Shown here: positions 8,533-55,822 of the stretch, one piece after another | Layout of the letters: each line of letters opens with the position of its first letter | Numbering within the stretch: the stretch's first letter is position 1 | Assembly (NCBI RefSeq): GCF_000024225.1 | Contig: NC_013203.1 | Span: 186,001 to 250,000, forward strand | DNA length: 64,000 nt | Reading direction: 5' to 3' | Source of the DNA: Lancefieldella parvula DSM 20469 | Lineage (GTDB): Bacteria > Actinomycetota > Coriobacteriia > Coriobacteriales > Atopobiaceae | Position numbers and translations under genes: made by a program | Notes under the pieces: model-generated | The model's database searches: none | What the model was told of the DNA's origin: nothing | The model's input: the letters and a program-made list of their open reading frames with translations, nothing else

Positions 8533-8563
8533 TTAGTAGCACTATCTAGTGAATAGTACTCTT

Positions 8564-9619: not shown

Positions 9620-9696
<77 letters not shown>

Positions 9697-11524: not shown

Positions 11525-11596
11525 TAATCCGCTCACAGAATTGCAGCTAAACATCGAGGCAACTGCAATGAATGAGGGTAATATTTAGGTATCTAG

Positions 11597-11626
11597 GTCG
11601 GGCCTCGTCCTTGGATGGGGCTCGAC
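11597..11626 (+). terminator. Intercistronic stem-loop between PTS IIC and IIB
   Basis: A 10-bp stem with a few G-U pairs (GTCGGGCCTC/GGGGCTCGAC) and a 10-base loop is followed by only four T. It may attenuate transcription or protect the upstream mRNA rather than end the operon. Confidence 0.5.
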
Positions 11627-11689
11627 TTTTAACTCAGAAAAATCCACGTAAACCCACATATCATGTGTGGTGAATTGAAAGGGGCATGT

Positions 11690-11974: not shown

Positions 11975-12077
11975 GCGCGGTTCCCTTACGCGGCACCGAC
12001 TCGCATATGGCGCGCACTCACATGCGGCGCACTTGCACGCCGCGCAGAAGCGCACGTAGCACGTGAAAGGAAATTAC

Positions 12078-12899: not shown

Positions 12900-12900
12900 C

Positions 12901-13842: not shown

Positions 13843-13905
13843 GCACTTGTGACCTCGGTGTACGTTACCGTGTTCCGAAGAATCGCTGAGGACCATCGTA
13901 TAAAC

Positions 13906-13941
13906 AAAGCCCTTCTCGTTATCTGGCGAGAAGGGCTTTTT
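13906..13941 (+). terminator. Rho-independent terminator after the transketolase genes
   Basis: AAAGCCCTTCTCG and CGAGAAGGGCTTT form a 13-bp stem with an 8-base loop followed by T residues. The right arm contains the recurring GGCGAGAA octamer. Confidence 0.92.
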
Positions 13942-13997
13942 ACGTGTAGAGAATTTGTAGTGCCACCAGATTGTCTACTTTTATCCTGCCTTATCCC

Positions 13998-14115
13998 GCC
14001 TGAAATGTGCAAAGAATCTGTATTTGAGTCACCGATTCTTTTGCAAAAACAGGCAAATCCACAGATTCTTTGATGTTTTCAGGCAGAATTTACAGATTCT
14101 TTGCAGGAATCAGGC
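13998..14115. repeat. Cluster of four 23-nt repeat units, one inverted and three direct
   Basis: Three direct units begin at 14032, 14062 and 14093, each starting with a CAGATTCTTTG-like block (first unit CCGATTCTTTTG) and ending CAGGC, with a variable middle; gaps are 7-8 bases. One inverted unit covers 13998-14020 (GCCTGAAATG then CAAAGAATCTG). The inverted unit and first direct unit can form a hairpin. No spacers of CRISPR length and no coding frame are present. It sits in the 434-base gap between transketolase and the dehydrogenase gene. Confidence 0.75.
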
Positions 14116-14181
14116 TTGCACTTAACTTCCGCCGTCCATTTGGCGAGAAACCCCGTCTACTAGCAGCGTTTCCGCACAAGA

Positions 14182-14214
14182 AACCCGGCATCCAAACGAA
14201 ATGGATGCCGGGTT
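14182..14214 (-). terminator. Terminator-like hairpin after the 3-hydroxyacyl-CoA dehydrogenase gene
   Basis: AACCCGGCATCC and GGATGCCGGGTT are perfect 12-bp arms with a 9-base loop. On the minus strand it is followed by TT-CTT, a short T-run. Confidence 0.7.
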
Positions 14215-14276
14215 GAAATTGCTTTGCGATCAGAACTTGCGCTCCAGCACGCAAGCGCCCCGCGCGTGCCCGAGCC

Positions 14277-15224
14277 TTACTTGTACTCGTAGAAGCCTTT
14301 GCCAGCAGCAACGCCCGTCTCGCCCTTGTCAATCTTCTCCTTGAGAAGCGCAACAATACGACCCTGTACAGACTCTGGGTCTTTAGCTGCAGGGTTCATT
14401 AGAGCAACGTTGTATGCGGTGACCAAGCCAATGATGTCCAGAATCTGGAATGGACCCTTTGGAGAGCCAGTGCCAATGCGCCAAGCCCTGTCGATGTCCT
14501 CGACGTCACCGACGCCGTTAGCCCAGAGCTGTTCAGCGGAAACCAGAAGAGGTACCAGCATGGAGTTCAGTAGGTAACCAGGCTGCTCCTTCAGGACCTT
14601 GACTGGAATCATACGAATGCTTGCTGCAAATTTGACGACCATGTCAAAGTTCTCTTGAGCGGTGCCTGCGTGACCCATTACCTCGCCAATTGGGTTACGC
14701 CAGATCTCGTTAGCAAAGTGGAGAGCCAGGTACTTCTCGGGACGACCAGTAGCTGCGGCAAACATGCTTGGAATCATGGTTGAGCTGTTGGTTGCAACAA
14801 TAGTCTTCTCGGGCAGATGCTTGGCTAGCTCGGTGTAGAACTCAATCTTCTGCTCTGGATTCTCTGCGACAGACTCGATGACAAAGTCTGCGTCACCAAA
14901 AGCCTCGTCCCAATCGGAGGTGAGCTTGAGGTTGCTGTATGCGCGCTCTACCTGCTCTTTAAGCTGGTCGAGTTTCTCTGGAGTAATCTCGTCCTGAGCA
15001 ATAAGACCGTAAGCGTAAGCCTTAGGATTGGTCTTCATAGCCTCAAGAGTGTTCAGATATACCTCTCTGAGGTGCTCAATCTTTGGACGAGCGCGCTCAA
15101 TTGAAGCCTCGGACCTCAGCCAAATGGTGGTTTTGTAGCCGCGATAAGCAGTCTGGAATGCAATCTGGCTGCCCAGCACGCCGCCACCGGCAACAACAAC
15201 GTTCTTTACCTGCGAAATGTCCAT
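14277..15224 (-). CDS. 3-hydroxyacyl-CoA (3-hydroxybutyryl-CoA) dehydrogenase
   Basis: A 315-residue NAD-dependent dehydrogenase. The N-terminal Rossmann motif VVVAGGGVLGSQIAFQ is at about residues 8-23. DADFVIESVAENPEQKIEFY and ATNSSTMIPSMFA follow. The catalytic His lies in YLALHFANEIWRN, about residue 160, where the family has HFFNP; the Pro is absent here, a variation seen in a divergent subgroup. The C-terminal domain ends with GETGVAAGKGFYEYK. The ATG at 15224 is preferred because AAAGGA lies just upstream; an upstream in-frame GTG would add 18 residues. Neighbours do not encode other fatty-acid or butyrate enzymes, so the substrate is uncertain. Confidence 0.82.
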   Translation of the reverse strand: MDISQVKNVVVAGGGVLGSQIAFQTAYRGYKTTIWLRSEASIERARPKIEHLREVYLNTLEAMKTNPKAYAYGLIAQDEITPEKLDQLKEQVERAYSNLKLTSDWDEAFGDADFVIESVAENPEQKIEFYTELAKHLPEKTIVATNSSTMIPSMFAAATGRPEKYLALHFANEIWRNPIGEVMGHAGTAQENFDMVVKFAASIRMIPVKVLKEQPGYLLNSMLVPLLVSAEQLWANGVGDVEDIDRAWRIGTGSPKGPFQILDIIGLVTAYNVALMNPAAKDPESVQGRIVALLKEKIDKGETGVAAGKGFYEYK

Positions 15225-15562
15225 TGGACTATCCTTTCTACAAGCGTGGCGAGAAATGCCACGCGAACTGTCTACCATCCCTATACCCTAGAAAGTTTCT
15301 GTCAGACATTCGTTTGAAAAGTTTTCGACTTTTATTTAAATCCTACAAATCACTTCTTGGCGAGAAACCACATCTATCGTTTGCAGTTCTTAGGTAGAAT
15401 AGAGGCGTGCAACCAGCAATTGGTTTCAATGTAGCTCATCGTCCGGTTTCGACACGGTCACTCGCTTGGCTTCAACGCAGCCGTTCGACTGAGCTTCAGC
15501 AAAATCATCGGCTGTAATTTAATAAAACGCCAGGCATAACGCTTGGGAAGAATAGAGGCATC
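15225..15562. other. Intergenic region between divergent genes
   Basis: This 338-base region must hold the promoters of the divergent dehydrogenase and the small 15563 gene. Two GGCGAGAA octamers (15248, 15359) lie in it. The string AGAATAGAGGC occurs twice (near 15393 and 15549), the second just before the 15563 start. I could not identify a convincing -35/-10 pair or an RNA gene. Confidence 0.4.
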
Positions 15563-15856
15563 ATGATCGACGGAACATACAAGATTCAAATGGATTCTCC
15601 TGTTGGAGCCAAAGAGGGCACTGCTGTACTCATCACATCTGGTGAGAAACTTACCGGCTCTCTAACTGCCATGGGTGTTCAGATTGATATTGAGAACGGT
15701 AAGGTTACCGACAACTCGTTTACCTTTGGCGGCAAGCTTGAGTCTTTTGTGGGTCCTGTTATCTTTGCTGTTGGCGGCTCTGTTGAGGGTAATACCATTC
15801 AAGGCATTGCCCACATCGCTAACCGAGACTTCGTGTTTACAGGCACAAGGGAGTAG
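15563..15856 (+). CDS. Small conserved hypothetical, beta-rich domain
   Basis: A 97-residue protein opening MIDGTYKIQMDSPVGAKEGTAVL. The repeated pattern of short beta strands (GSLTAMGVQIDIENGKV, NSFTFGGKLES, GSVEGNTIQGIAHI) suggests a single small beta-barrel or lipocalin-like fold. There is no signal peptide. Similar domains occur alone or attached to oxidoreductases in Coriobacteriia as far as I recall; that recollection is not verified. AGAGGC precedes the ATG. No function is proposed. Confidence 0.65.
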   Translation: MIDGTYKIQMDSPVGAKEGTAVLITSGEKLTGSLTAMGVQIDIENGKVTDNSFTFGGKLESFVGPVIFAVGGSVEGNTIQGIAHIANRDFVFTGTRE

Positions 15857-41353: not shown

Positions 41354-44041
41354 ATGGCTATAGCTAAATGGTATAAAATTGATTTTCATACGCATACTCC
41401 AGAGAGTAGGTGTTTCCCAGATAAATCTATTACGGCAGCAAGATGGTTACAGGCTGCTAAAGATAGCGGATTGAATGCTGTAGTTGTAACTGATCATAAT
41501 TCAGTTGGATTTATTAGTGAAATAGAAAAAGTCAAAAATCAATTTGAGGAGCTTAATCCTATTAAGGGTAATCTCTTTAAAGTTTTCTATGGTATAGAAT
41601 TATGTGTTTCAGCTGAGTTCACACATATACTTATAATTTTTGATGACAAAATGTCAGTGACTGAAATTGAAGATGCAGTCATTGGTTGTTTGGGATTAAA
41701 AAGAAATGATTGGGCAAATACGGAGATAAATGTTTCTGAGGATAAATTAAAAAAGTTATGCCAAGAATACGAAAATAAAGTGTTTGTTATACCTGCTCAT
41801 TTTGCATCAAATAAAGGCTTAGGAACATGTAGAACAAATGCAATAAAAAAATATCAAGAGTTTGTTAAGTTTTCAGCCGTAGAGGTTAGAAATTCTACAG
41901 ATGTTAAAGAATATAAAAACAAACTAAATAATAAAGTGATTAATGAAGCTGTTTTAGTAACTGGATCCGACAATCCGTCAAATAAAGACGAGACTCAACA
42001 TTCTATTGAAGGGTTTGGAAAGATATTTACGTGGATTAAAGTTTCAGATTTATCATTCAATGCATTAAGACAAGTTTTTATTGGTCCTGAACATAGATGT
42101 ATAAATTGGTTGGATTTAGAAGCAATTGGCATAGATTATAATCCAAACAATATATCATTTAATTATATATCAGGGATAAACTTTAAGGGCATATCACATA
42201 TGACTGATATGAATATAAGATTTTCACCACATCTAAATTGCATTGTTGGTGGAAGGGGAACTGGAAAATCAACACTTGTAGAAGCTATTAATTATGGCGT
42301 AGGTAATGAGTCTGATTTAAAAAGATGTAATTTAATGGAAAAAACTTTTGATAAAAGCGGGTCAATTAGTACTTTCTTTAATTTTGGGGAAGTAAAAGCA
42401 TACAAGGCAAATTGTATTAGGAGTGGAAAGCAAACTGTTTTAACAATAGAAGATGATAATGGTGTTGTAGATAATCCACCAGAATTTAAAATAGACTTCT
42501 ATGGTCAAAAGGAAATATTTGGATTAATAGAGGATGATAATGATATAAGTAGCAGTGATATAAGCCCATTGATAAAATTGATAGATGATAAAGTGAAAGC
42601 GGAGTTGTTTTCATATAAAGATGATATTGAAAATTCTATATCGAGCATGGTATCCTTATCAAATAATTACAAAGCTAATCGCAAAAAAATCCAAGATATG
42701 CCTGGAATAAAAGCCGAAATAGAAAAGAGTGAGGCTATTCTAAAAAAATTCCAAGCTAGTGGTATTGAAAGTGCTCGTGCAGAATATGAACAAACTGATA
42801 ATGTTATTAAAACAATTAATGAGAAAGTTCAAACTGAAAAAGAGGTTATTAACGAATCTATTCAAAGATTTTCAGAACTAAAGGAAGATTTAAACAGAGA
42901 TATTTTAGTTTTGTTGGAAAAGTTAGGTAGCGATGATGAGAATATCCAAATAGTTACAGAATTAAAAGATATAAACGATGAAATTATAAATCATGCTAAT
43001 AATAAGATAGATTCTTTAAGCAAATTAGAAGAAAAATTTAATTCTTCAAATATTTACAATAAATTAAAAGTTGATTATGAAAAGTATAAAGAAGCGGTGG
43101 AAGAGGTTAATAATACCGGTGGGGAGAACATTGATTATATACAAAATCAATTGCAAAATAATAGAAACCGCTATGATCAATTAAATCAATTGCAGCAACA
43201 ACAACGGATTCTTAAAGAGAAAATTAGGCAATCTATATGTGATTTTGTGGAAAAAAGGATTAAATTGTCTGACAAAAGAAAACATGTAATCCTTGAGTTA
43301 GGACTTGATACTATAAAAATTGAGATTGTTCCTTTGGGGCATATTTCAAGATGGAAAGCAAATTTACAAAAGGAATTTGGTAAAGAAGGAATATTTGATT
43401 CTGAGTTTGAAAAACTATCAGAAAATGTTTTATCAAAAACTAATAATTTTGAAAACTATAAAAAATTCCTTGAGTTTTTATTAATTGATGATACTGGAGA
43501 TATAGAGTGTCTTTATGAAGATATAAAAACCGATCCAAGGTTTAATAAACTATGGTTAGATAAGCATAAGAACGATACATTAAGTTCAATGGTAAAAATA
43601 ATTCCTGAAGATAAAGTGAATATAAAAATTTTAGAGGATTCTGGTGAAATTGATATAAATGATGGCTCTCCAGGTCAAAAGAGTGCAGCGCTACTTGCTT
43701 TTATTCTTAATAGTGGAGATAGCCCGTTAGTGATAGATCAACCAGAGGATGATTTAGATAACAGTTTAATATATAGTTTAGTTGTTACATCCATTAGGCG
43801 AATGAAAAAGAAACGTCAAATAATTATAGTAACTCATAATCCCAATATACCGGTATTAGGAGATGCAGAAGGAATATTGATTTTAGATAGAGATTCCTTT
43901 GGCAAAGTTACATTTAGAAAAGATAAGAAGGCGGGCTGTATAGAAGAACAAGTAATAAAAGAAGGAATTTGTGAAATAATGGAAGGTGGAGAAGCAGCTT
44001 TTAAAAAAAGAGAAGAAAAATATCTAAGCCTTCTGGGTTGA
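41354..44041 (+). CDS. PHP-domain/SMC-like ATPase (TrlF-type)
   Basis: An 895-residue protein. The N-terminal PHP phosphoesterase domain has DFHTHTPESR at residues 9-18, VVTDHNSVG and IPAHFAS metal ligands. An ABC/SMC-like ATPase follows: Walker A CIVGGRGTGKSTLVEA at about 298, a long coiled-coil arm (about 430-680), a signature-like DGSPGQKSAALLAF at about 774 and Walker B PLVIDQPEDDLDN at about 795, then an H-loop IIVTHNPNIPV. This architecture matches TrlF-type PHP-ATPases and resembles nuclease-ATPase defence proteins. It is very AT-rich and lies in an island with restriction remnants. The ATG has GAAGGGGG upstream. Anti-phage function is inferred from context. Confidence 0.82.
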   Translation: MAIAKWYKIDFHTHTPESRCFPDKSITAARWLQAAKDSGLNAVVVTDHNSVGFISEIEKVKNQFEELNPIKGNLFKVFYGIELCVSAEFTHILIIFDDKMSVTEIEDAVIGCLGLKRNDWANTEINVSEDKLKKLCQEYENKVFVIPAHFASNKGLGTCRTNAIKKYQEFVKFSAVEVRNSTDVKEYKNKLNNKVINEAVLVTGSDNPSNKDETQHSIEGFGKIFTWIKVSDLSFNALRQVFIGPEHRCINWLDLEAIGIDYNPNNISFNYISGINFKGISHMTDMNIRFSPHLNCIVGGRGTGKSTLVEAINYGVGNESDLKRCNLMEKTFDKSGSISTFFNFGEVKAYKANCIRSGKQTVLTIEDDNGVVDNPPEFKIDFYGQKEIFGLIEDDNDISSSDISPLIKLIDDKVKAELFSYKDDIENSISSMVSLSNNYKANRKKIQDMPGIKAEIEKSEAILKKFQASGIESARAEYEQTDNVIKTINEKVQTEKEVINESIQRFSELKEDLNRDILVLLEKLGSDDENIQIVTELKDINDEIINHANNKIDSLSKLEEKFNSSNIYNKLKVDYEKYKEAVEEVNNTGGENIDYIQNQLQNNRNRYDQLNQLQQQQRILKEKIRQSICDFVEKRIKLSDKRKHVILELGLDTIKIEIVPLGHISRWKANLQKEFGKEGIFDSEFEKLSENVLSKTNNFENYKKFLEFLLIDDTGDIECLYEDIKTDPRFNKLWLDKHKNDTLSSMVKIIPEDKVNIKILEDSGEIDINDGSPGQKSAALLAFILNSGDSPLVIDQPEDDLDNSLIYSLVVTSIRRMKKKRQIIIVTHNPNIPVLGDAEGILILDRDSFGKVTFRKDKKAGCIEEQVIKEGICEIMEGGEAAFKKREEKYLSLLG

Positions 44042-44771
44042 TAATTAGTACAATTTATTTTATTGAAGTATTTTGCTTAAAAAGTACCTATAAAAATAAA
44101 GGAAACACAAAATGTATGCGAATAAGAATCTTGCAAATGCTTATTTTATAATGGGTAACAGACTTTATATGAAGAGTGGGAGTAGGGAAATAGCCCATTT
44201 CATCTAGTCTCATCCTACACGTCTAGTCGTGGTGATTAGCAACTAATAGCCTGTATTAGACAAAGCCACTGGGACTTTTGGGGAGTGGAAAATGCTAGAA
44301 AGCCCTGAAATCTTCGAGTTTTGGGGCTTGTTTTATGGGTGTTAACCCGCGGAAATACTCTTCACTCCACTGTGTTGGGGTGACGCGTTGCGACCCGTTG
44401 CAAAGAGAAGTGACTAGATGCCAAGACATGCCAAAGCGAGAAGAGTATTTTCATCGCGTTTTTTAGCCGCATGGGCATTTTAGGACGAACCATGTAGTCA
44501 TTTTGTAGTCACCACGCCTTTTCAGCCCTCCGTTTCGCAAAGCCGCAGGTAGAAGTGAAGAGCGACAAATCGAGAAAATTCTCGTTTTCCGGCGATTCCG
44601 GGCCGTTTTCGGGGTATTCGGAAAGCCGTTTGTCACTCTCAACATCGTGTGCAATAGGCGATTTCGGGCCCGTTTTGGCCCCCGAAAACCGGCAATAGTA
44701 ATGCGAGAGTGACGATTTGCGGCAAAGAAAAGGGGCACTGCAGCGTCCCCGTAAGCGCTCTACGCTCTGCC
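44042..44771. other. 730-base non-coding junction between two island segments
   Basis: This stretch has no convincing gene. It contains the 12-base guaA-end copy (44174-44185), a stem-loop at 44301-44328 (AGCCCTGAAA/TTTTGGGGCT with a following TTTT) and separated inverted arms AAATACTCTTC (about 44353) and GAAGAGTATTT (about 44442). Composition changes from AT-rich to GC-rich at about 44,460. Short frames on the minus strand from 44463 to 44856 have no recognisable features. Confidence 0.5.
44174..44185 (+). repeat. 12-bp copy of the guaA 3' end (att-like)
   Basis: GAGTGGGAGTAG here is identical to the last 12 bases of guaA including its stop codon. It bounds the AT-rich part of the island (39025-44185). 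Confidence 0.6.
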
Positions 44772-45491
44772 CTAGCCCATGAAACGGGCCTTCCAGGACT
44801 CGTAGTCGCCCTCGTCTATCTCGCCCGATGCAAGCTGGTCCCTCATGCGTTTCCATGCCTTGAGGGTCTGCACGGCCTTCTGCGAGCCTTCCTTCTTGGG
44901 ATCGGGCGCTATGGCCACCCCGTCTTCGGTGACGACGGGTATGAGGCTCAGCTCCCTCTCGTAGCGGAATAGGACCTCGAGAGTACCCCTCGCGCCGCTT
45001 ACGCCTATCTTGCGTATGGAGTCGGCGGCGACGTCGTCGACTTCATCGCCCGTGACGAGGACGACCTGGTCTTCGTCCACTGCCAGGTCGCACAGAACGG
45101 CGGCGAGGGATTTCCCGAGGAGGACGCGGACCGCGCGGCGCTCGAACGGCTCGCGGCTGCCTACCTCGTCGAGCACCTGGACTCCGAGGAAATCCGGATT
45201 AGGTTCGACGTTGTGAGCATGTTCATCGTCGGCGAGAGTCGGGCGCTTCTCCGTCACCACCTCAACGCGCTCGGCACGCTCTAAGCGCAGGGCATCCCTG
45301 GGAGCTTCGGCTCCCAGGGCGCTGGCTATGCTCAAAGCATGTCCATCATCTTCAATATGACGCTTATGCGGGCGATTGAAAGCAACGGTCTTGCCCAGAT
45401 TCAAATCGCAGTTTGTCGGCCTGTTGGACGAAGGCCGCGAACTCTTGCTGAGCATCAAGTGAAGGAAGGGAGACGATAGTGGTACCAACAA
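44772..45491 (-). CDS. Doubtful GC-rich ORF at the end of the hsd segment
   Basis: The frame is open but overlaps the silent hsdS cassette in another frame and lies antisense to a YraN-like remnant. Only the last 65-70 residues look protein-like: GTLEVLFRYERELSLIP, then a helical tail LKAWKRMRDQLASGEIDEGDYESWKARF. That tail resembles the short alpha-helical C-terminal domains found at the ends of many actinobacterial proteins. A genuine gene, if any, would be a truncated one within about 44772-44985. Confidence 0.25.
   Translation of the reverse strand: MLVPLSSPFLHLMLSKSSRPSSNRPTNCDLNLGKTVAFNRPHKRHIEDDGHALSIASALGAEAPRDALRLERAERVEVVTEKRPTLADDEHAHNVEPNPDFLGVQVLDEVGSREPFERRAVRVLLGKSLAAVLCDLAVDEDQVVLVTGDEVDDVAADSIRKIGVSGARGTLEVLFRYERELSLIPVVTEDGVAIAPDPKKEGSQKAVQTLKAWKRMRDQLASGEIDEGDYESWKARFMG
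44973..45284 (+). pseudogene. YraN-like (UPF0102) nuclease-fold fragment
   Basis: A plus-strand frame without a start reads GGDVVDFIARDEDDLVFVHCQ, then GFPEEDADRAALERLAAAYL and IRFDVVSMFIV. The order and spacing match YraN/UPF0102 proteins (GEVDLIARD...LVFVEVK...PEEAV...RFDVVSV). The catalytic EVK is replaced by HCQ and the N-terminal third is missing, upstream of a TAG at 44970. GC content is far above the neighbouring AT-rich island. It is probably a decayed fragment carried in by the element. Confidence 0.55.
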
Positions 45492-45926
45492 TTTTTGCGT
45501 TAAGGTTCTTCATTGTCTGTCCAACGGCTTTGCTTTCAAGGGCGTCCTTGAAAGACGGAAATGACAGCACACGTTGGAGATAATCAGGGCGACACTGCGC
45601 TGATGGACGGACAATCATGCTGCCTGTGCCGCACAAATAGCCCTCTTCACAAACAACCGCACATCTGCCAATTTCACCTCGGCGTCCAAGAACAATATCG
45701 CCAGGTTTAAGGTGATAGGTCTCCATTTCGTCATACTTACTGTCACTGATTGTGAGGTCGTTGTCAGGAACTATCTTTCTGCCTGCCATATGAGACGGAT
45801 TAACAAGCGCGTGCCCGCCAGTGATGTAGTCTTGCTTATGTAGCGAGCTACCAAAAGGCCCAATTCGCAGTTCGCAGAAGTCCTTGATGTAATGTTGCGG
45901 CCAAGGCGAGCTTTCATCAATCGGAT

Positions 45927-45966
45927 CCCCGAACATCTCGACAAACCGGGATTTGACGAGGGTGTC
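45927..45966 (-). repeat. 40-bp central hsdS repeat, silent copy
   Basis: It encodes the central conserved region and matches 51590-51629 in the active gene with one mismatch, in the same orientation. Confidence 0.9.
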
Positions 45967-46475
45967 AAGGCGAGATGTTTGCTCCTGGGTTATAGCAATC
46001 TGTTGGTTGATTTTATTGAGTACGGCTGTTTGCGCAGACAAAGTTTCCTCATTTGGAATGGCTATCTCAATTTCCGAGATCTTACTCAGCTTGATGGAGG
46101 GAAAAGAGGGGTTTTCGATTAGTCGATTGGGCTTATTGTATTTGAAGTAGTGCTGAAGAAAAGTCGACATGGAGCCTTTGGGTGTCACGCAAGCCAAGTG
46201 CGAAACGACATAACATGGTCGTTCAAGGGTATAGACGTAGCCTTTTAGGCATGACATGCCGCTCTTCGCAAACAACACTGTTCCTGCAGGAAATAACTTG
46301 AGCTTGAGCTGCTTTGCCGTCGGCTCATCAACCTTATCAAGCATATCGTAATCGCCGTTCTTGATAAGGCCAGATAAACTACCTGCCCTAACAAAAGGAA
46401 TCCCCTCTTCAGAAAAATCGCTTGCCTTCGGTGCGACGTTTCCAGTGGTAACGTTTGCGATGTCCCCAAGCCGAA

Positions 46476-46500
46476 CTCGCTCGCCGACAAATTGCGGTTT
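46476..46500 (-). repeat. 25-bp 5' hsdS repeat, silent copy
   Basis: Identical to 52130-52154 at the start of the active hsdS, same orientation. It is a likely recombination site, lying 34 bases beyond the recombinase stop codon. Confidence 0.9.
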
Positions 46501-46533
46501 GGCATGGAATCACCAGTACAGTTCGTTCTTTGC

Positions 46534-47520
46534 CTAGGCGATAAATTTTCGATGGGCTTGTTTGACATTTTCTTGGTCAACCATCGCGTAACACAGTGTG
46601 GTATCTATCTTGCTATGTCCCAACAACACCTGCACCTGCTCTATTGGCATTCCTTTATCGATGGCTCGAGTGGCCATGGTTCTTCTGAATTTATGTGGGT
46701 GCACCCTCGGAAGCCCGAGAGATCTGCCCAGCATGCGCAGTCGCAGCTCTACCCCGCTAATTTCAAGGCGCTTCTTTGTTCCATCGAGTGAAATAAACAA
46801 AGCAGGGTTCTCATCATGGCGACTATTTAGGTACTCATGCAGGTGCACTTTAGTACGCGCATCAAAATAGACTCTGCGCTCCTTGTCGCCTTTGCCTCTC
46901 ACTACGCATTGCCTGCCCTCAAAGTCGATGTCTTCTCGATTGAGTCTCACAAGCTCGCCAACGCGCATACCCGATGAAGTGAGAAGGTCTACGAGCGCTA
47001 GATCTCGAACGCATGTACATCCATCACGCATGGTTTCAAGTTCGTCATCAGTGATTACGGGCTTGATGTTCCGAGGAGAACGAATCTTCTTAATGCGCCT
47101 TACAGGACTCTTCAGGATGTAATCCTCCGCCTCAAGCCAAGAGAAAAGGCTTGAGATAACCCGCCGCACGTTGTCGACCGTGATTTTAGAGACGCCTTTA
47201 CGTTGCCCGTACTCAATGAGGTAGCTGCGCACTTCCTCAGTTGTTACCTGGCGAAATCCCGTTGTGATGTTCACCATGTAATGATGCAGAACACTTGCGT
47301 AGTAGCTTATCGTGCGTTCAGAGCATCCCTCCAGTCGCTTGGCTGCATAAAACGCATCAAGCATCCGCTTATTGCTCATCGATGTCTTTGCGTCTGCCCT
47401 GGCCGCATCATCATCCAGGCATTGGCGCAACACTGCGTGAAGGAGGTCCCTCTGACTTCCGCTCAGTGCTCCCTCCATCAAGTGTTCAATCCTGCTGATT
47501 GTCTGCTTGTATTCGTTCAT
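46534..47520 (-). CDS. Tyrosine recombinase associated with hsdS switching
   Basis: A 328-residue phage-integrase-family protein. The N-terminal SAM-like DNA-binding domain lies at residues 50-150. The catalytic residues appear in order: Arg in SSGMRVGEL (about 198), HPHKFRRT (His-x-x-Arg, about 276), LLGHSKIDTT (His, about 300) and the nucleophile Tyr in LCYAMVD (about 311). It lies between hsdR and the silent hsdS cassette, the position of the recombinase in phase-variable type I systems. It could also be the integrase of the island, but xerC/psrA-like enzymes at hsd loci are more usual here. Confidence 0.9.
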   Translation of the reverse strand: MNEYKQTISRIEHLMEGALSGSQRDLLHAVLRQCLDDDAARADAKTSMSNKRMLDAFYAAKRLEGCSERTISYYASVLHHYMVNITTGFRQVTTEEVRSYLIEYGQRKGVSKITVDNVRRVISSLFSWLEAEDYILKSPVRRIKKIRSPRNIKPVITDDELETMRDGCTCVRDLALVDLLTSSGMRVGELVRLNREDIDFEGRQCVVRGKGDKERRVYFDARTKVHLHEYLNSRHDENPALFISLDGTKKRLEISGVELRLRMLGRSLGLPRVHPHKFRRTMATRAIDKGMPIEQVQVLLGHSKIDTTLCYAMVDQENVKQAHRKFIA

Positions 47521-47615
47521 AACCCATCCTTTCCAGAATGGGCCAGGCAGGGATGCGGGCGGACGGGCGCGACTAGCGCCAATTTTGCTTGGCCTAGGCG
47601 TACGTCCGCCCTCAG

Positions 47616-50600
47616 TTAAGCGGCAGGCGTGGTAGCGTTGTCGTTTACCGATTGAATAATCTGCACGAGGCGTCGTTGCCTTCTTCCGTCGAAGAGCCTT
47701 ACGAAGCTCTGCGGTTGATCAAATGGAGGCTTGCCCAAATCGGCCAAATCCATAAAGCCATTGGTCTCTACGTAGTCGACGATCTTGTGAACGAAATCCA
47801 TCTGCTGGCGCGAAAGAGACTCGTCTCCTAGAAATTCCGCAAAAGCATCCATCGCGGCTTCATGCGAAAGACCTGCAACTTGCCGTACAAGCTTCCCGAA
47901 TGGAGTGTCACCATAAGCGGCTCGATAGTCCGCTTCATTACCTAGTTCGACCGTGAAAATACGCTCCAGCTCATTGAGCTCGAAGGAAGTCATCTGTTGG
48001 TTGTGATGAATCTTGGCGATTACCGTGTGGTTCGCATTCTGAGCGATATAGCGACTTACCTTTAGCTTATAGTCCTCGAAATCCTCTTTAGGGCTAATAG
48101 CATCGCCCTCGCAGCGTCCAACAACGGAGTCGGTGACTCGCGTTTCCACCATCAGAGGCCTGCTGTCGCCGATGAGGAACTTCATAAGGTCACGCAGCTC
48201 TACGCGTACCTCTTCAAGCGTGATTAGACTTGCACTCTCAAGGAAGCCCTCGGATGTAACGCGTTTCAGGAGATCCATTTTCTCCCGCACCTGGGGAATG
48301 CTTGCCTTATTTTGCAGCCTCACGGCAATGCCCACCACGCGTGTGCGATGGTTTTCTGTGTTGGTTCCACTTATGAGCACCACCATATAGGCATACATGA
48401 GCGCATCGAAGCGCAATGAGAGCTCTTCTTCACCATCTGCACGCACTAGAGGGGCGACCTTGTTGAGGTCTGCTATATCTACGTCCTCGAGGACTTGATA
48501 TGAAGGAACTTGCGAGAACTTGTCAACTTCACGGATGTGCAATTTGACCGCAGCAGTAAGCGGTTCCTTAACGCTTTGGACTTTAACCGCCATTTCCTGG
48601 ACTACTCGGACGCGCCACTCCTGGTAATCATCAGATGCGAAATCTGCTCCCTGCAGGGCTTGGGCAAGCAGAGCCTGACGCTTGAAAACCTTCTCCTGCA
48701 TGCTTTCCGGGTTAGCACCCTCTGCTAACTTTTGCTCCTGGCGGAAAAACTCGAAGTTACCGCACCAGTCGAAAATGAAGAAGTGCTTCTTGTCTTCGTA
48801 TTCTCCAGACACTTTGTCTTGGGCATGTATTCCCTCACAAAGCCTGGTTCCACGTCCTATCATCTGCCAGAACTTGACCTTCGACTTCACTTGCTTGAAG
48901 AACACGAGGTTAACGACTTCGGGCACGTCGATACCCGTGTCCATCATGTCGACAGACACGGTGATGGTGGGCATTTCCTTCGTCTCGAAGTCAGTAATAA
49001 CAGTTGGGGCGTAATCGTCCGTGTGCACAACGCGCTTGCAAAAACCTTGTGCGCCAAACTTCGGATAGAGCTCGTTGAAGCGTTTGACGATTATCTCTGC
49101 ATGCTTGCGGTTCTGGGCGAAGATGATCGTCTTTCCTATGTGCTCGCCGCCCTTGATTTTGATTCCCTCATCCATGAGGGTCGTAAGGACGAGATCGATT
49201 GTGTGCTCGTTGAATACAAAGCGGTCTAGCGCGCTTGCCTCGACGTAATCAGGTGCGGAAGTTCCCTGCGCTTCCTCCCAGTCATCGTCGTAGCGCTGGC
49301 GATCTTCCTCCGATAGCTCGTCATATGTGATGCCCTTGGAGAGAAAGTTCGTCTGGACCTCGATGTTGTAGTAGGGGACGAGAACCTTGTCTTTCTCAAC
49401 CGCGGTCGCATACTCGTAGAGGTACGTTGGGATACCGCGTTCGACTTGGAAGAAGTCATAAGTATTGCGATCGACTTCATCTTTGGGGGTTGCCGTGAGC
49501 CCAACCACCGGTGAATCGAAGTAATCGAAAATGGCGCGGTATTTTTTGAAAATAGAACGATGGGCTTCGTCAACGATGATGAGGTCGAAATGAGCCGGCG
49601 TAAACAGGCGCGCATCCCCATCTCTCTTCACGTCATCTACCGCATTCAATATGGTGGGGTACGTGGAGAATACAATGCGTGCATCGACATTCTTCGCCTT
49701 GTCATCGGTCTCACAAAGGTTGCACACGGTCATTGTGGTTAGGTAGTTTTGGAAGGCATTCTTTGCCTGTCGAACCAATGCAACACGGTCTGCAAGGAAA
49801 AGAACGTTAGTCACCGCTCCCGCACGGGAGAGCACGTCCACCAAACCTGCTGCGGTTCGCGTCTTTCCAGTTCCCGTGGCCATAACGAGAAGGCTTCTCC
49901 GATGCCCTTCTTCCATATTCTGGCACACGGCTTCAATGGCCTCTACCTGGTAGTAGCGGTTTCGCCCGCCGCCAGCAATGTCGCGATTGACGGGCACGGT
50001 GGAAAGATTCTTTACCTTACCGCGCCTGTTCATAAGGCGCTCGAGATCTTCTCTGCCAAAGACGCCCGAACAGGCACGAGGTGCAGCAGTTCCGTCATCC
50101 ATGAAGCGCGTCTCAAAGCCATTGGAGAGGAAGACGAAGGGTCGGTACCCGTACTTCTTTTCCAGGCAGTTTGCATAGAGACGAGCCTGTTGCTCACCTT
50201 TCAAGGGATCGTACATGGTGCGCTTGGCCTCGACGATTGCCAAGGGCTTGCCATTCCTGCCCAGAAGTACGTAATCGATAAATCCAGTACCCGTGGGGTT
50301 CGGCATACCGCTAACTTCAGCCTCGGTCTTTACACTGTCATCGAGGTTCCAACCTGCATATTCAAGATCAACATCGATATAGCGCTTGCGCGTCTCATAT
50401 TCGGGAATCTCATCCGGATTGAAATGCGTTTCCTCGGGGCGCTGCTCCTTGGTTTCGCTGAACTGTGCCCGCTGTGCCCTCACCTGCTCTTCCAGTTGGG
50501 CTATGCGAGCATCTTTTTCTGCATTCTCCTGCAGGGTCTTTCGCAGTTTCTGCTCGTCAAGCGCCTGTTTCAGGACGGGAATCGCCTTGGGATCAAAATG

Positions 50601-50993
50601 GCGCTCCTCGTAACTTGGCCCATAGCAGTAGTCAATCCACTCAACGAAGTTAAAAAGTCCTGCTAATGCAGCGAGGGCATCGCGTGCATCAATTTGCCGT
50701 TGGGTGTGAGCCGCGTTGTTGCCGAGCTTCCAGATGTAGCGCAGCTGGCCCCAGGTAGTAGTGTCCATGGCATTCTTGAAGCTTGCCTCATGAATGAGGG
50801 AGGCGAGGTTGCTACGCCATGGCTCGTTCATTGTTTCGTCGGCCGCATAAACCCATTTGACGGCAAGTTCCATCGCCTTACGGCATGCAAGTGCGCACAT
50901 AGCGGGACTTGATGCGAAGGTGCGTTCTGCATCTTCGCAAGCGCCAGAGAACATCTCGTACTCTTTAATGTCCTTAAGGAAGCTGAAATTCAT
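47616..50993 (-). CDS. hsdR: Type I restriction enzyme, R subunit
   Basis: A 1125-residue ATP-dependent translocase and nuclease. The N-terminal region (residues 1-120) resembles DUF4145, and a coiled coil follows (about 130-180). The nuclease site has GKPLAIVEAKRT at about 250. The helicase core has LVMATGTGKTRTAAG (Walker A, about 370), LIIVDEAHRSIF (DEAH, about 470), VVGLTATPKDE and QMIGRGTRL. A C-terminal helical domain binds HsdM. It starts nine bases after hsdS on the same strand. Confidence 0.95.
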   Translation of the reverse strand: MNFSFLKDIKEYEMFSGACEDAERTFASSPAMCALACRKAMELAVKWVYAADETMNEPWRSNLASLIHEASFKNAMDTTTWGQLRYIWKLGNNAAHTQRQIDARDALAALAGLFNFVEWIDYCYGPSYEERHFDPKAIPVLKQALDEQKLRKTLQENAEKDARIAQLEEQVRAQRAQFSETKEQRPEETHFNPDEIPEYETRKRYIDVDLEYAGWNLDDSVKTEAEVSGMPNPTGTGFIDYVLLGRNGKPLAIVEAKRTMYDPLKGEQQARLYANCLEKKYGYRPFVFLSNGFETRFMDDGTAAPRACSGVFGREDLERLMNRRGKVKNLSTVPVNRDIAGGGRNRYYQVEAIEAVCQNMEEGHRRSLLVMATGTGKTRTAAGLVDVLSRAGAVTNVLFLADRVALVRQAKNAFQNYLTTMTVCNLCETDDKAKNVDARIVFSTYPTILNAVDDVKRDGDARLFTPAHFDLIIVDEAHRSIFKKYRAIFDYFDSPVVGLTATPKDEVDRNTYDFFQVERGIPTYLYEYATAVEKDKVLVPYYNIEVQTNFLSKGITYDELSEEDRQRYDDDWEEAQGTSAPDYVEASALDRFVFNEHTIDLVLTTLMDEGIKIKGGEHIGKTIIFAQNRKHAEIIVKRFNELYPKFGAQGFCKRVVHTDDYAPTVITDFETKEMPTITVSVDMMDTGIDVPEVVNLVFFKQVKSKVKFWQMIGRGTRLCEGIHAQDKVSGEYEDKKHFFIFDWCGNFEFFRQEQKLAEGANPESMQEKVFKRQALLAQALQGADFASDDYQEWRVRVVQEMAVKVQSVKEPLTAAVKLHIREVDKFSQVPSYQVLEDVDIADLNKVAPLVRADGEEELSLRFDALMYAYMVVLISGTNTENHRTRVVGIAVRLQNKASIPQVREKMDLLKRVTSEGFLESASLITLEEVRVELRDLMKFLIGDSRPLMVETRVTDSVVGRCEGDAISPKEDFEDYKLKVSRYIAQNANHTVIAKIHHNQQMTSFELNELERIFTVELGNEADYRAAYGDTPFGKLVRQVAGLSHEAAMDAFAEFLGDESLSRQQMDFVHKIVDYVETNGFMDLADLGKPPFDQPQSFVRLFDGRRQRRLVQIIQSVNDNATTPAA

Positions 50994-51002
50994 GATGTTG
51001 TC

Positions 51003-52163
51003 CTATATCGCGAAGTATTCCTGAGCGAGACTGTCGTACAACGTCTGGAGTTTTTTCTTCTGCTCTTCTGCTACAACTCGCAGTTTGTCGACCTGCCGGA
51101 CAAAGGTCGCGAACTCTTGCTGAAGAGATGGAGGGGGCACGCAGAACATTTTTCTTGATAGAGCTGTTTTGTTAAGGATGCCTTTGAGCTGCATGTTGAT
51201 ATCAGAGCAAAGATAGTCTTTTGAAAGCGACAGCATCCAGTAAAGATACTCAGTCAAGATTCCATCTGCAGGAATAATCGCATTTATTTGTTGGTTGAAT
51301 GCTACGGGTCTATCGGCAATCGCCACTTTGCCTATGGATTTAACGCTTCCTGCAATGCATGACATCAGCACGCTTCCTGATGGAGCAATCCTGCCCGCAG
51401 ATGCCCCGTCCTCAGAAAGCGATTCAGCTGCCTTTGTAAGCACTGGGGTTGATGTGATGTTGTCTGTTTTAATCCATTCAATATAGTCGCCGTAGTACTC
51501 AGGTTTTTTTCTTGATGGGGTATTCCCTGTGATTATTTTGGCAAAGCTATCTAGGCGCGACTTCTTATTCGAATTTAGAGCGATTGGGTCCCCGAACATC
51601 TCGATAAACCGGGATTTGACGAGGGTGTCGAGCGAAGCAATAAATTCTCCTCTTGCCTCAATCTGCTTTTCAAGTCGCGATAAGACAACAAGTCTTTTTT
51701 CCTGTACATCAATACTAGGCAAGGGCATCTCAAGCAAGCTAAGTGCATCGAATTTGAGATTGCTGCGCACGGTACCAGACGACCTAAACGCTATCTGGTT
51801 GAGTCCAGGCTTACTCTTGAGAAATCGCAGCAGGTAACCCGGCGCCAGATGTCTCGTATCAACCGAAAAGACTACATAGAGCGGGCTTACAACCACTCTA
51901 TCGGCAGACTCTTGTAGTGCAATTGAACCTACGTTAATACGAGACGGGTTATAGGCAAGCATTCCTCTTTCGACAAGGCGATATGCTTCCAGTTCCTTGC
52001 TAAAGACCTCTTTGGAAAAGTATTCAGTTGATGGTACGAATCCATGTGAGTTCGTAACACTATATACATCCGTGCACTTTGCACCCTTATTTCTTTTGCC
52101 CGCAGCGCTAACAAAAGATGTAAGTCTCACTCGCTCGCCGACAAATTGCGGTTTGCTAGTCAT
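51003..52163 (-). CDS. hsdS: Type I restriction enzyme, active specificity (S) subunit
   Basis: A 386-residue subunit with two target-recognition domains separated and followed by conserved helices. The N-terminus MTSKPQFVGERVRL carries the shared 25-base repeat. The central helix LDTLVKSRFIEMFGDPI carries the 40-base repeat. The second domain begins after SRLDSFAKIITGNTPSRKKPEYYGD. The C-terminal coil is EFATFVRQVDKLR to QTLYDSLAQEYFAI. The start overlaps the hsdM stop by eight bases (ATGACTAG), so translation is coupled. Recombination with the silent cassette at 45.4-46.5 kb could change either recognition domain. Confidence 0.93.
   Translation of the reverse strand: MTSKPQFVGERVRLTSFVSAAGKRNKGAKCTDVYSVTNSHGFVPSTEYFSKEVFSKELEAYRLVERGMLAYNPSRINVGSIALQESADRVVVSPLYVVFSVDTRHLAPGYLLRFLKSKPGLNQIAFRSSGTVRSNLKFDALSLLEMPLPSIDVQEKRLVVLSRLEKQIEARGEFIASLDTLVKSRFIEMFGDPIALNSNKKSRLDSFAKIITGNTPSRKKPEYYGDYIEWIKTDNITSTPVLTKAAESLSEDGASAGRIAPSGSVLMSCIAGSVKSIGKVAIADRPVAFNQQINAIIPADGILTEYLYWMLSLSKDYLCSDINMQLKGILNKTALSRKMFCVPPPSLQQEFATFVRQVDKLRVVAEEQKKKLQTLYDSLAQEYFAI
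51590..51629 (-). repeat. 40-bp central hsdS repeat, active copy
   Basis: Matches the silent copy at 45927-45966 with one mismatch. Confidence 0.9.
52130..52154 (-). repeat. 25-bp 5' hsdS repeat, active copy
   Basis: Identical to the silent copy at 46476-46500. It begins nine bases after the ATG. Confidence 0.9.
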
Positions 52164-53676
52164 CTAGCCCACCGCCAAGCACCTTCTTGAGCTCTGCAAG
52201 ACCTGTCGCCATTTCCTTATTCAGCTCGTCGAGCTCTGCCACAATCTGTTCCGTAGGAGGATATTCAATGCGCTCGTACTCAGTCTCAACGTACTTGTTG
52301 AAGCTGAAGTCGTAGTCGTTGTCGATGATGTCCTGCTTGGAGACGAGGAAGCTCTTCTGCTTGCGGTCGCGTTTCTCTTCACTTTCCAAATGAGCCCAAC
52401 GCTCCAGAATGTCTGGCACGTCGTTGTGGGCATCATCGATATCTCGCTTGTCATCGAGTGTGTAGCCGTCGCCCTCCATGTTGTAGAGCCACACCTTGTC
52501 AGTGCCACCGGCATTGGTTTTCGTGAAGACAAGTACAGCGGTACTTACACCGGAATAGGGTTTGAATACGCCGCTTGGCATGTAGATGATGGCGCGCAGC
52601 TGCTGGTTGTCAACGAGCTCTTGGCGCAGCTGACGATACGCCTTGGAATTGGTGCGGAAGAGCACGCCGTTGGGAACGATGCATGCGCAGCGGCCGCCCA
52701 CTTTGAGCATACGCAAAAAGAGCGCCACAAAGAGCAGTTCGGTCTGCTTGCTGTTACAAATCGCCTTGAGGCTTGGTGCGATGTCTTCTGTGTCGACGCT
52801 ACCTGTAAAAGGCGGGTTGGCAAGCACGAGGTCGTACTTGTCGCTGGTGGTGTTTTGCTTACTTACCGAATCAACTAGCTTGATGTCTGGCTGGCTAATG
52901 CCGTGCAGCATCAGGTTCATAGCGCTGATGCGGAACATGGTCTGGTCGGTCTCGCCTCCAGAGAACTGATGACGACCCTCCGCAACAACATTGCCATCCG
53001 CGTCCTTCTCCGCCGCCTCACCGGCAAAGACTGTCCAGTCATCGTCTTTCATAGCTGAGTCATTACGAAGATGGTCGGCGGCACTGATGAGAAAGCCCGC
53101 CGTACCCATGGCGGGGTCGCAGATGCGCTCACCGGGACGGGGATCGACCATAGCAACCATCATGTCGCGGATGTGTTTGGGCGTGCGGAACTGACCATTG
53201 GTGCCAGCGGTGGAAAGCTTGGAGAGCATGTATTCGTAGAGGTCTCCGAGATCATCCATGTCGTTCTCGAAGTCGTTCATGAGAGAGTCGATGCCCGAGA
53301 CTGCTTTCTGCAGGGTGCGTGGGTTGTTGATGCCGAAGGTGGCGTCACGCATGCTGCGTGCAAAGGGCGTGTCATCATGCAAGGTTTTGATGAAGGGAAA
53401 AACCTTGTCCCGTATGGCTTCGAGCATTTTTTCCGGCGCCATGTTCTTGATGGAGCACCAGCGCATCTCCTGCCCCTCTGACGTCTGAGGGAAAAGGTAC
53501 TCCTGCGGAATGCCAAGCTCTTCCATGCGCTCTGATTCTAGTTCCTTATCGTCGAGCGAACGGATGAACATAAGGTAGGTAAGCTGGGTGATAACTTCCT
53601 GCGGGTTGGTGATGCCGCCTTCCCACATCCTCTGCCAAACGTCGTCTACCTTGCTCTTGGTTGCTCCGGTAATCAT
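52156..53676 (-). CDS. hsdM: Type I restriction enzyme, modification (M) subunit
   Basis: A 506-residue N6-adenine methyltransferase. The N-terminal HsdM_N helical domain (VWQRMWEGGITNPQEVITQL) precedes the catalytic domain with SAM motif I RICDPAMGTAGFLISA (about 183) and motif IV LVLANPPFTG (about 286). GVLFRTNSKAYRQLRQELVDN is conserved. It lies 42 bases after the half-sized hsdS-like gene and overlaps hsdS, so the operon order is S-half, M, S, R. Confidence 0.95.
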   Translation of the reverse strand: MITGATKSKVDDVWQRMWEGGITNPQEVITQLTYLMFIRSLDDKELESERMEELGIPQEYLFPQTSEGQEMRWCSIKNMAPEKMLEAIRDKVFPFIKTLHDDTPFARSMRDATFGINNPRTLQKAVSGIDSLMNDFENDMDDLGDLYEYMLSKLSTAGTNGQFRTPKHIRDMMVAMVDPRPGERICDPAMGTAGFLISAADHLRNDSAMKDDDWTVFAGEAAEKDADGNVVAEGRHQFSGGETDQTMFRISAMNLMLHGISQPDIKLVDSVSKQNTTSDKYDLVLANPPFTGSVDTEDIAPSLKAICNSKQTELLFVALFLRMLKVGGRCACIVPNGVLFRTNSKAYRQLRQELVDNQQLRAIIYMPSGVFKPYSGVSTAVLVFTKTNAGGTDKVWLYNMEGDGYTLDDKRDIDDAHNDVPDILERWAHLESEEKRDRKQKSFLVSKQDIIDNDYDFSFNKYVETEYERIEYPPTEQIVAELDELNKEMATGLAELKKVLGGGLDD

Positions 53677-53718
53677 GAGTGCTCCTTTTTGGTGGTGTAA
53701 TCAGAATCGTTCCGTAAA

Positions 53719-54306
53719 TCAGTGCATTGCTATTTGGTCAAACGTGCTGAAGAGCAGCTGGTCGCTCTTCGCTTCCGCCAGGCGATAGAGCTCCTTACGC
53801 TTTTGCGTGTTCTCGAAGAGCTCTGCAAGCAGCTGCTGCACGCTTTTCGACGGAGTGAGTACTGGTATGTCCAAGATGTCCTTCTTCTTGAGAAGCTGCA
53901 GCGTCACCCCCTTGCTCTCGCTCTGCAAAAGCTGTCGTGTCTGAGGCAAAGTAAGAAATGCAGCTAGGTATCTCATGTCGATGTCTGCATCAGGAAGTGG
54001 TCTGATGATGAGCCCAAATGAAGTGACCAACAGACCCTCATGTGCGCAATCGATATAGGCACAGTCATAGGGGGTTGATGTCTTTAGAATTACATCACCA
54101 CAATGTGTGAGGAGATCTTCTTTTACTGCAGAGACCTTCGCTTCCACGAGTTCCTGATTGATGACTCGTCCGTTTTCTATTGCTTTTGGAACAAGGACCT
54201 GCGTTGCGTGAAATGGGACACCTTTTGTCTGCCGCTTCGCACGGCTAACGGGTGCGCCGGTCTTGACCGAACACAGTGCACCCAAGTGTTGATATGCAGC
54301 AGGCAT
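53719..54306 (-). CDS. Half-sized HsdS-like protein
   Basis: A 195-residue protein with a single recognition-domain-like unit. It opens with YQHLGALCSVKTGAPVSRAK, contains KEDLLTHCGDVILKTSTPYD and GLLVTSFGLIIRPL, and ends with a helix (LLAELFENTQKRKELYRLAEAKSDQLLF) resembling the conserved dimerising helix of S subunits. GAGGAG precedes the ATG. It is the first gene of the hsd operon. It might act as a half S subunit forming homodimers, or be a remnant of another system. It makes three S-type reading frames in 9 kb. Confidence 0.75.
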   Translation of the reverse strand: MPAAYQHLGALCSVKTGAPVSRAKRQTKGVPFHATQVLVPKAIENGRVINQELVEAKVSAVKEDLLTHCGDVILKTSTPYDCAYIDCAHEGLLVTSFGLIIRPLPDADIDMRYLAAFLTLPQTRQLLQSESKGVTLQLLKKKDILDIPVLTPSKSVQQLLAELFENTQKRKELYRLAEAKSDQLLFSTFDQIAMH

Positions 54307-54354: not shown

Positions 54355-54392
54355 ATTTTATTCAAAATTATCGTTGGGTCAAGTGATAAACT

Positions 54393-54410
54393 GTTCTTAT
54401 CGGTATGAAC
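54393..54410. promoter_or_regulatory. Palindromic operator 2, hsd/abiH intergenic region
   Basis: GTTCTTATCGGTATGAAC has the same outer bases as operator 1; the two sites are 38 bases apart, on the abiH side. A shared regulator of both divergent units is likely. Confidence 0.65.
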
Positions 54411-54439
54411 ATCTAGGTGCGTATAGCGAGGAAATACAC

Positions 54440-55822
54440 ATGGATGACCTGTCACAGAACTCTTCAGAATCAACCGAGGGCAATAGCCCATTCAGCGGCC
54501 TGGCAAAGGCAATCAAGCAAGATGGAAGCTTCCCTGCGAGTTCATTTGGAAACGGAGCGTTTTCCAATGCTATTTTGGAGCATTCGAAGATACCCGAACC
54601 AGATTATCCGTACCTTATCGATGCTTCACCTACGGACTATTTACTTAAACCTGACTGGAACCAGCTAATCATCATAGGAAACGGCTTTGACCTAGAGTGC
54701 GGACTACACTCGACCTACCGTGATTTCTTCGCGTCGAGGCGGAAGATTCTTCTTTGCGAAACAACCCCGGGTAAACGCAGCGAACAAAGCTGGGGTAAAT
54801 GCCTGAAGGAAGCTGGGATATCGGCGTGGGAACTGATTCTCCAAGACAAGTACGAGTCGTATTGGTACGACATCGAAAGAGCCATCAAGGACTGGGTTGC
54901 ATGGGACTATACCAGGATTGGATTCCCTTCGAAAAATACTGCCATTGTCCTGCAGTACATTAAGAGCGGTGCAAAGTCGGACCAGGCCGACCCCGACAGG
55001 TTGGTAGGTGCTAAGGTCGCCCGCTATGTCGAGGACACGCATCCTGCGGCTGAGATTAGAGGTTGGGAGGCGGAGGACGTCTATGACTTCCTCCTTGAAG
55101 AACTACACGCTTTGGAGCATGAATTTGCATCTTACTTGAAAGGTGAGATTGCGCGTAGCAGCGACTATAAACAAAACGCTATCAGGCTCATGTGGAATCT
55201 TCTAAATGACGAGTTTCCAAAAGACAGCGATAAATACGAAATTGAAGAGTCCGTGCTCAGCTTCAATTACACAAGGCCCTTTGGCAGTCAGCTAGGGAGG
55301 GCCCCACGCACAAACATTCTCTCTAATGTGCATGGCAGCATCGAAAAGGACAACATCGTATTCGGCATAGACGGTAGTGATTGCATGGGCCTCAACAAAG
55401 TTATTGAGTTCACTAAAACCTATCGTCTGATGGCTTTGGGAAGCCCCGATTTCAGCCGAGTCGTCCATGGCGATGGGAAAAGCCCGATGAGTCATTCAAC
55501 GGATTTAATTAAATTCTACGGGCATTCGCTTGCAGATTCAGACTATTCGTACTTCCAAGCGATATTCGACAGAGTTGGCCTATACAGTGGGAACACGCGC
55601 CTTGTCTTCTACTATCGCCCTCACAAGCTAAGAGATGGATCAATGCGCTCCGAGAAGGACGTAAGAGAATCCACAATGAAAAGCGCTATCAAGTTACTCA
55701 CCGCCTACGGGAGGACAATGGAGAATGTCGATCATGGCAAGAACCTTATTCACAAATTATTGCTTGAAGGGCGTTTATCGGTGAAGTTACTCCCCGATGA
55801 CGAAGTTGTTCCCATAGGCTAA
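54440..55822 (+). CDS. abiH: AbiH family abortive-infection protein
   Basis: A 460-residue protein. The family landmark is QLIIIGNGFDLECGLHSTYRDFF at about residues 74-96 (GNGFD-x-x-x-G-L-x-T-x-Y-x-D-F). SVLSFNYTRPFG near 278 and FGIDG and YGHSLADSDYSYF further on are also conserved. The first 60 residues are poorly conserved and polar. AbiH blocks phage growth in Lactococcus by an unknown mechanism. The ATG at 54440 has GCGAGGAAA before it. It is divergent from the type I restriction operon and shares a palindrome-bearing regulatory region with it. Confidence 0.88.
   Translation: MDDLSQNSSESTEGNSPFSGLAKAIKQDGSFPASSFGNGAFSNAILEHSKIPEPDYPYLIDASPTDYLLKPDWNQLIIIGNGFDLECGLHSTYRDFFASRRKILLCETTPGKRSEQSWGKCLKEAGISAWELILQDKYESYWYDIERAIKDWVAWDYTRIGFPSKNTAIVLQYIKSGAKSDQADPDRLVGAKVARYVEDTHPAAEIRGWEAEDVYDFLLEELHALEHEFASYLKGEIARSSDYKQNAIRLMWNLLNDEFPKDSDKYEIEESVLSFNYTRPFGSQLGRAPRTNILSNVHGSIEKDNIVFGIDGSDCMGLNKVIEFTKTYRLMALGSPDFSRVVHGDGKSPMSHSTDLIKFYGHSLADSDYSYFQAIFDRVGLYSGNTRLVFYYRPHKLRDGSMRSEKDVRESTMKSAIKLLTAYGRTMENVDHGKNLIHKLLLEGRLSVKLLPDDEVVPIG

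Follow-up and report, generated by a model that had tools for sequence, protein, structure and literature searches.

How can a Type I restriction-modification system exchange the recognition domains of its specificity subunit when both copies of the specificity gene point in the same direction? The question is raised by a locus of Lancefieldella (Atopobium) parvula, an oral actinobacterium, in the stretch of 64,000 nucleotides of strain DSM 20469 (NC_013203.1, positions 186,001 to 250,000) that was analysed here and is called the window below. Its genes run from a half-size hsdS-like gene through hsdM, hsdS, hsdR and the gene of a tyrosine recombinase to another hsdS, which has no start. An earlier note on this DNA rightly stated that all genes have one orientation, the entire set lying on the minus strand, and that simple inversion is unable to exchange the two copies, with hsdR between them; only excision or conversion could do so. 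From the premise that known phase-variable hsd loci invert, it went on to propose an unusual mode of switching or a captured rearranged state. The premise fails, since the pneumococcal SpnIV/tvr locus shuffles directly oriented hsdS parts by excision and reintegration (PMC6265443). It is likely, in our judgement, that the hsdS domains of the window are shuffled in the same manner, by excision and reintegration between direct repeats through the action of the Xer-like recombinase. Unless stated otherwise, the features described below lie on the minus strand, and coordinates are window positions.

Shared sites in two unlike hsdS copies

The expressed hsdS (51003..52163; 386 amino acids; Pfam Methylase_S, 2.3e-22) is composed of an ATG, a start site, a first target recognition domain (TRD1), a middle site, a second such domain (TRD2), an end site and a conserved tail, LQTLYDSLAQEYFAI. 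The silent copy (45364..46509) is an open frame of 381 codons that also matches Methylase_S (1.7e-17). The repeat at the start of both copies is exact, as the earlier note had it, although it consists of 27 identical bases and not 25. The middle repeat is the described one of 40 bases with a single mismatch, flanked by 24 and 16 identical bases, while the similarity of the 3' regions extends over 50 bp at 88%. Outside these boxes, global alignment gives an identity of 52-53%, the level of shuffled sequence; the recognition domains, already described as different, are unrelated. With up to one mismatch allowed, the motif CAAAYCSCRRTTTGTCG occurs across the whole 1.54-Mb genome at the six hsdS positions only, and the boxes are far beyond chance.

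Every box is a near-palindrome, a feature not reported earlier, around a central in-frame AAA-N6-TTT (with GTT in one core). The start site reads AAA CCGCAA TTT in the expressed (52143..52154) and in the silent copy (46489..46500), and the middle site likewise reads AAA TCCCGG TTT in both (51606..51617 and 45943..45954). The end site is AAA CTGCGA GTT in the expressed copy (51075..51086) and AAA CTGCGA TTT in the silent one (45403..45414). The six-base cores are the same in both copies and different among the start, middle and end types. With arms that are palindromic in part (GACAAA/TTTGTC), the sites look as those of Xer-like recombinases should (Xer/dif), and the recombinase of the locus is presumed to act on all six.

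In the expressed copy the ATG stands three codons ahead of the start site. The silent copy has no start codon, as previously claimed: a TGA lies four codons ahead of the start box, and between the two no start codon occurs. Its frame is free of internal stops, and both domains are recognised by Pfam. What had been overlooked is that it also lacks the conserved C-terminal tail, a short unrelated tail following the end site instead. Because both start codon and tail are absent, the silent copy is a cassette between sites. Related loci have the same organization: of the hsdS copies in those of the direct type, 44 of 52 upstream of the recombinase have the conserved tail, which all 48 downstream copies lack. 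The silent copies of the coriobacterial loci that were checked have no start codon shortly before the start site; in locus L046, the closest relative, in-frame start candidates lie at least 37 codons upstream.

Blocks exchanged and duplicated in related loci

Hundreds of genomes contain a relative of the recombinase. The 80 best were retrieved, and 95 loci were examined in all. Within the family, 15 of 140 genomes carry the recombinase. Fifty-eight of the 95 loci are direct, with all hsdS copies on both sides in the orientation of the recombinase; 18 have copies in opposite orientations, and the other 19 are incomplete. Direct orientation is therefore not odd: of the 76 loci that could be typed in this recombinase family, 58, the majority, have it. 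It is about three times as frequent as the inverted layout among the relatives examined, and it extends across several phyla. Loci with the order hsdM, hsdS, recombinase, hsdS, hsdR (M-S-int-S-R) occur in Clostridia, Bacteroidota, Eggerthellaceae and Coriobacteriaceae; their recombinase is a homologue, in most of them about 55-64% identical, and they have the same site core and a tail-less silent copy adjoining the recombinase. They differ from the window in the position of hsdR, which follows the second hsdS, outside the segment, in 53 of the 58 direct loci. The order M-S-R-int-S, with hsdR ahead of the recombinase, is found in the window, in L046 (73-74% identical) and in L064, and hsdR inside the segment is a rare variant of the direct form. 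With these counts, and with the recurrence of its gene order, the idea of an unusual or captured state loses its ground. One further coriobacterial locus (L050:2785-12172) combines hsdR inside the segment with an inverted silent copy and links the direct and inverted forms.

A survey of REBASE searched for inverted repeats only (PMC7394358). As the direct layout is the commoner one, many phase-variable methylation systems may therefore be uncounted. An in-frame AAA-N6-TTT, compared like core with like core, would provide a simple sequence test for loci of the direct type.

Within loci, the middle cores are identical in 49 of 49 pairs and the end cores in 60 of 63; between different loci the figure is 36.5%. 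In the three deviating pairs, a motif in a half-gene or a tail seems to have been mis-assigned. Start cores are identical in all seven coriobacterial pairs checked (7/7) and mostly different between loci. This identity within loci persists although adjacent third positions diverge.

In several relatives, domain blocks are exchanged or duplicated and end exactly at the sites. Both hsdS copies of L049 share a 100%-identical block of 569 bp from the middle to the end site, those of L092 one of 567 bp between the same sites, and those of L064, from a metagenome-assembled genome (MAG), one of 522 bp from the start to the middle site; in each case the remainder differs. As L064 has the gene order of the window, an intervening hsdR and recombinase gene appear compatible with exchange. 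Between loci, the silent TRD1 of L048 and the expressed TRD1 of L049 are 99.2% identical from the start to the middle site, with flanks at 89-91%. The domains of the window are themselves part of a mosaic across genera: its silent TRD2 is 67% like that of L047 and 61% like that of L046, its silent TRD1 52% like that of L051, and its expressed TRD2 70% like that of L051. Mosaic hsdS alleles in relatives, whose absence had been named as a refutation of the earlier proposal, were thus looked for and found.

Could these blocks have arisen by RecA-dependent gene conversion between the hsdS copies, the recombinase being irrelevant? The exact common stretches of 27, 24 and 16 bp and the non-reciprocal duplicates in L049, L064 and L092 would suit such a process. 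The stretches are, however, very short, the blocks end at AAA-N6-TTT cores in unrelated genomes, within loci the cores stay the same although nearby third positions diverge, and the recombinase is present throughout. Moreover, shuffling in tvr is much lower without tvrR, and excision is still seen in a recA mutant (PMC6265443). We therefore consider conversion by RecA improbable.

In Lactococcus plasmids, too, exchange is seen at the sites. pJM2A and pUCCL627F have 100%-identical backbones and TRD2 blocks swapped across the recombinase, and the crossover between pJM1A and pJM2A lies inside TAAATCATCATTTA, with its AAA-N6-TTT core. Here, two sites with the same core stand in opposite orientation, and inversion occurs. 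Inverting hsdS loci, as in pneumococcal SpnIII/ivr/cod with PsrA and in Streptococcus suis (PMC4948785, PMC7394358), resemble the window in having a locus recombinase, a silent hsdS and exchange at hsdS repeats. They are built on inverted repeats and need one inversion per switch, whereas the copies in the window are direct and two recombination steps would be needed. It could be imagined that the window is such an inverting shufflon caught in one orientation. Eighteen of the 76 typable loci of the same recombinase family are inverted, and the best inverted pairs in the window, start box against end box, reach 19 bp, though imperfectly. The start core in reverse (TTGCGG) differs, however, from the end core (CTGCGA) at 2 of 6 positions, while the inverting Lactococcus sites share the same core, and sister loci retain the direct order. 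Direct exchange is to be expected in the window because the start and end cores mismatch in reverse. A captured inversion was rejected on account of the mismatched cores and the conserved direct order; we give it hardly any credence.

A proposed cycle of excision and reintegration

Judging from its layout and its relatives, the locus is very probably a working switching system of the direct-repeat type. The expressed hsdS would serve as a platform, with hsdM and an ATG plus two more codons on one side and the conserved tail on the other, and the silent copy would be a cassette without either end of the platform. Since the six-base core differs between the site types, only like sites are expected to recombine. 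The recombinase would cut out the segment between like sites and close it into a circle with hsdR, its own gene and cassette sequence for two domains; the circle would reinsert at the same or at another site. When all states are enumerated under this rule of like with like, four integrated forms result, combining two TRD1s with two TRD2s in the expressed position, besides four excised states. In each of the latter, hsdM and an hsdS without its tail stay on the chromosome, the tail being on the circle with hsdR and the recombinase. With the start site, either TRD1 should be able to move: in an enumeration without it, the same four-domain locus yields two combinations only, and the hsdM-proximal domain is fixed.

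The gene for the restriction subunit, hsdR (47616..50993; 1125 amino acids; Pfam ResIII 3.3e-40, EcoEI_R_C 5.5e-25), lies between the two hsdS copies, within the segment that they bound. The earlier suggestion of an hsdR deletion is sound in so far as hsdR is on the excised segment; it would not be an end point, reinsertion of the circle giving the four integrated states. Deletion as the end state was rejected as the main explanation, in that reintegration would restore hsdR, and L046 and L064 have the same layout. The circle would carry hsdR and the hsdS tail away from the operon promoter on the hsdM side, so that restriction may be off while hsdR rides on the circle, a possible alleviation of restriction through topology. 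The variant with hsdR inside makes it testable how cells survive a sudden change of restriction specificity.

In SpnIV/tvr, circles, direct repeats and dependence on the recombinase have been demonstrated (PMC6265443). Like the window locus, it is a Type I system that encodes its own tyrosine recombinase and has directly oriented hsdS parts; in both, short direct repeats with a common core lie at the midpoint and the tail, the N- and C-terminal domains stay in position, and a structured RNA precedes the recombinase gene. The two loci also differ. The hsdR of tvr lies outside the excised segment, and its authors saw no obvious mechanism of restriction alleviation in their locus (PMC6265443). 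Furthermore, tvr has no 5' repeat, and its hsdM-adjacent domain is immobile, while the 27-bp start repeat occurs in both copies of the window. It also possesses tvrAT, a phd-doc-like pair, and a terminator-like attenuator; the window has no such toxin-antitoxin pair beside the recombinase, the gap between hsdR and the recombinase being only 95 bp, and has a hairpin over the ribosome-binding site. The window locus probably works like tvr, yet it is a different type of locus: excision-reintegration was already known, and what is new, as judged from open-licence papers, is hsdR inside the segment and the layout with three sites.

The same sites and recombinase might also act without a free circle, by unequal or double exchange between sister chromosomes, a sub-variant that overlaps with the cycle proposed here. 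A domain that is present twice, once in each copy, requires a step that is intermolecular or non-reciprocal, and a circle from L049 (Rubneribacter badeniensis, 6571-15750; order recombinase, silent hsdS, hsdM, hsdS, hsdR) would carry hsdM. A circle that reinserts into the sister chromosome would likewise yield duplicates, however, and circles have been directly shown in tvr (PMC6265443). By analogy with that locus, a circle seems the better candidate for the intermediate, and sister exchange alone is rather unlikely.

Several points weigh against excision and reintegration, or against switching altogether. The window locus is known in one arrangement, from a single genome of the species, and the recombinase together with hsdM is missing from the four other genomes (sister species) of the genus. 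Two sites of the expressed copy have imperfect arms, the middle one with TTTATCG in place of TTTGTCG and the end one with GTTG in place of TTTG. Assembly from a mixed population could have produced the duplicated blocks of the MAG locus L064 and of draft genomes, although that, too, would mean variation. Finally, with hsdM inside its excisable segment, L049 fits poorly with a productive circle and leaves room for sister-chromosome exchange. Should the locus then be seen as a decaying remnant, its silent copy a dead duplicate and its switching lost? The imperfect arms and the absent start codon and tail would agree with decay, but that absence is the rule for silent copies of relatives, and the 381 codons are stop-free, both domains are recognisable, the cores are identical between the copies and the recombinase is intact. 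Decay thus has little probability, and excision and reintegration presumably still operate in this strain.

The recombinase, its leader and the neighbouring genes

The recombinase (46534..47520; 328 amino acids; Pfam Phage_integrase 6.4e-31) matches the Xer/integron model NF040815 of NCBIfam with 232 bits, against a cutoff of 220, and scores far under the XerC/XerD equivalog cutoffs. Its catalytic residues R186, H276, R279, H302 and Y311 are invariant in the family alignment. With XerA, XerC and XerD it has in common the fold family, the catalytic residues and sites with a six-base centre and partly palindromic arms; it differs from them as a single dedicated gene in an hsd locus, with sites inside coding sequence and three types of core. 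A 49.5%-identical recombinase occurs in L153 / L154 (Methanosphaera plasmid pNP174, archaeal) with no hsd genes annotated nearby. L137 comprises M, S and R with a middle site and no adjacent recombinase, which could be an excised or an ancestral form, although the contig is no proof. Searches of viral contigs with the recombinase gave distant relatives only (38-41%), and the start repeat had no match there.

In the gap between hsdR and the recombinase (47521..47615) two hairpins are predicted, a stretch of 111 nt having -52.8 kcal/mol and a z of -4.8; no sigma-70 promoter for the recombinase was found in this gap. The second hairpin overlies the ribosome-binding site of the recombinase and adjoins its ATG. 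Taken alone, the 45-nt start hairpin of the window is not significant (z -0.2), in contrast to the whole leader. Family-wide, a helix is present at 68 of 99 recombinase starts, where dinucleotide shuffles give 21.9, a count in which related sequences are not independent; in the same test, hsdM starts have 8 of 83, with 15.7 expected, and hsdR starts 20 of 85, with 17.5 expected. The coriobacterial and clostridial start hairpins have unrelated sequences. It is likely that the hairpin prevents production of the recombinase from read-through transcripts. Tentatively, it could be imagined that these elements act jointly: hsdR and the tail on the circle would make switching restriction-free, the hairpin would limit the recombinase, and the placement of the cores alone would decide between excision and inversion. 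Such a combination is possible, if somewhat doubtful as a whole. The first hairpin, after hsdR, pairs GGGCGGACG...CGUCCGCCC, and in L028 and L046 GGGCGGAUG...CAUCCGCCC, a compensating change.

According to Pfam, the domains of HsdM, HsdS and HsdR stand together in one operon, and the locus also encodes the tyrosine recombinase. The modification subunit gene, hsdM (52156..53676; 506 amino acids; Pfam N6_Mtase 1.2e-59, HsdM_N 2.9e-14), overlaps hsdS by 8 bp. Upstream of it lies the half-size HsdS-like gene (53719..54306; NCBIfam MADS5, 4.4e-7), which is without a recombination site. Homologues 48-49% identical exist in G027 and G062, with a further copy in L051, and the gene is conserved better than the variable domains. 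In the operon it is probably accessory, and it may encode a specificity half, as a fixed accessory or as an alternative. The site motif has no matches in another hsdS of the same genome, which lies elsewhere (G000:C1:1375384-1376316; 459-aa frame). Between the silent hsdS and the next gene (44042-45364) there is apparently gene debris only, including a minus-strand frame ending LASGEIDEGDYESWKARFMG. The locus as a whole is part of a defence island, with an AbiH-family gene (54374-55822, plus strand) on one side and a gene for a TrlF/Ppl-like ATPase (41354-44041, plus strand) on the other.

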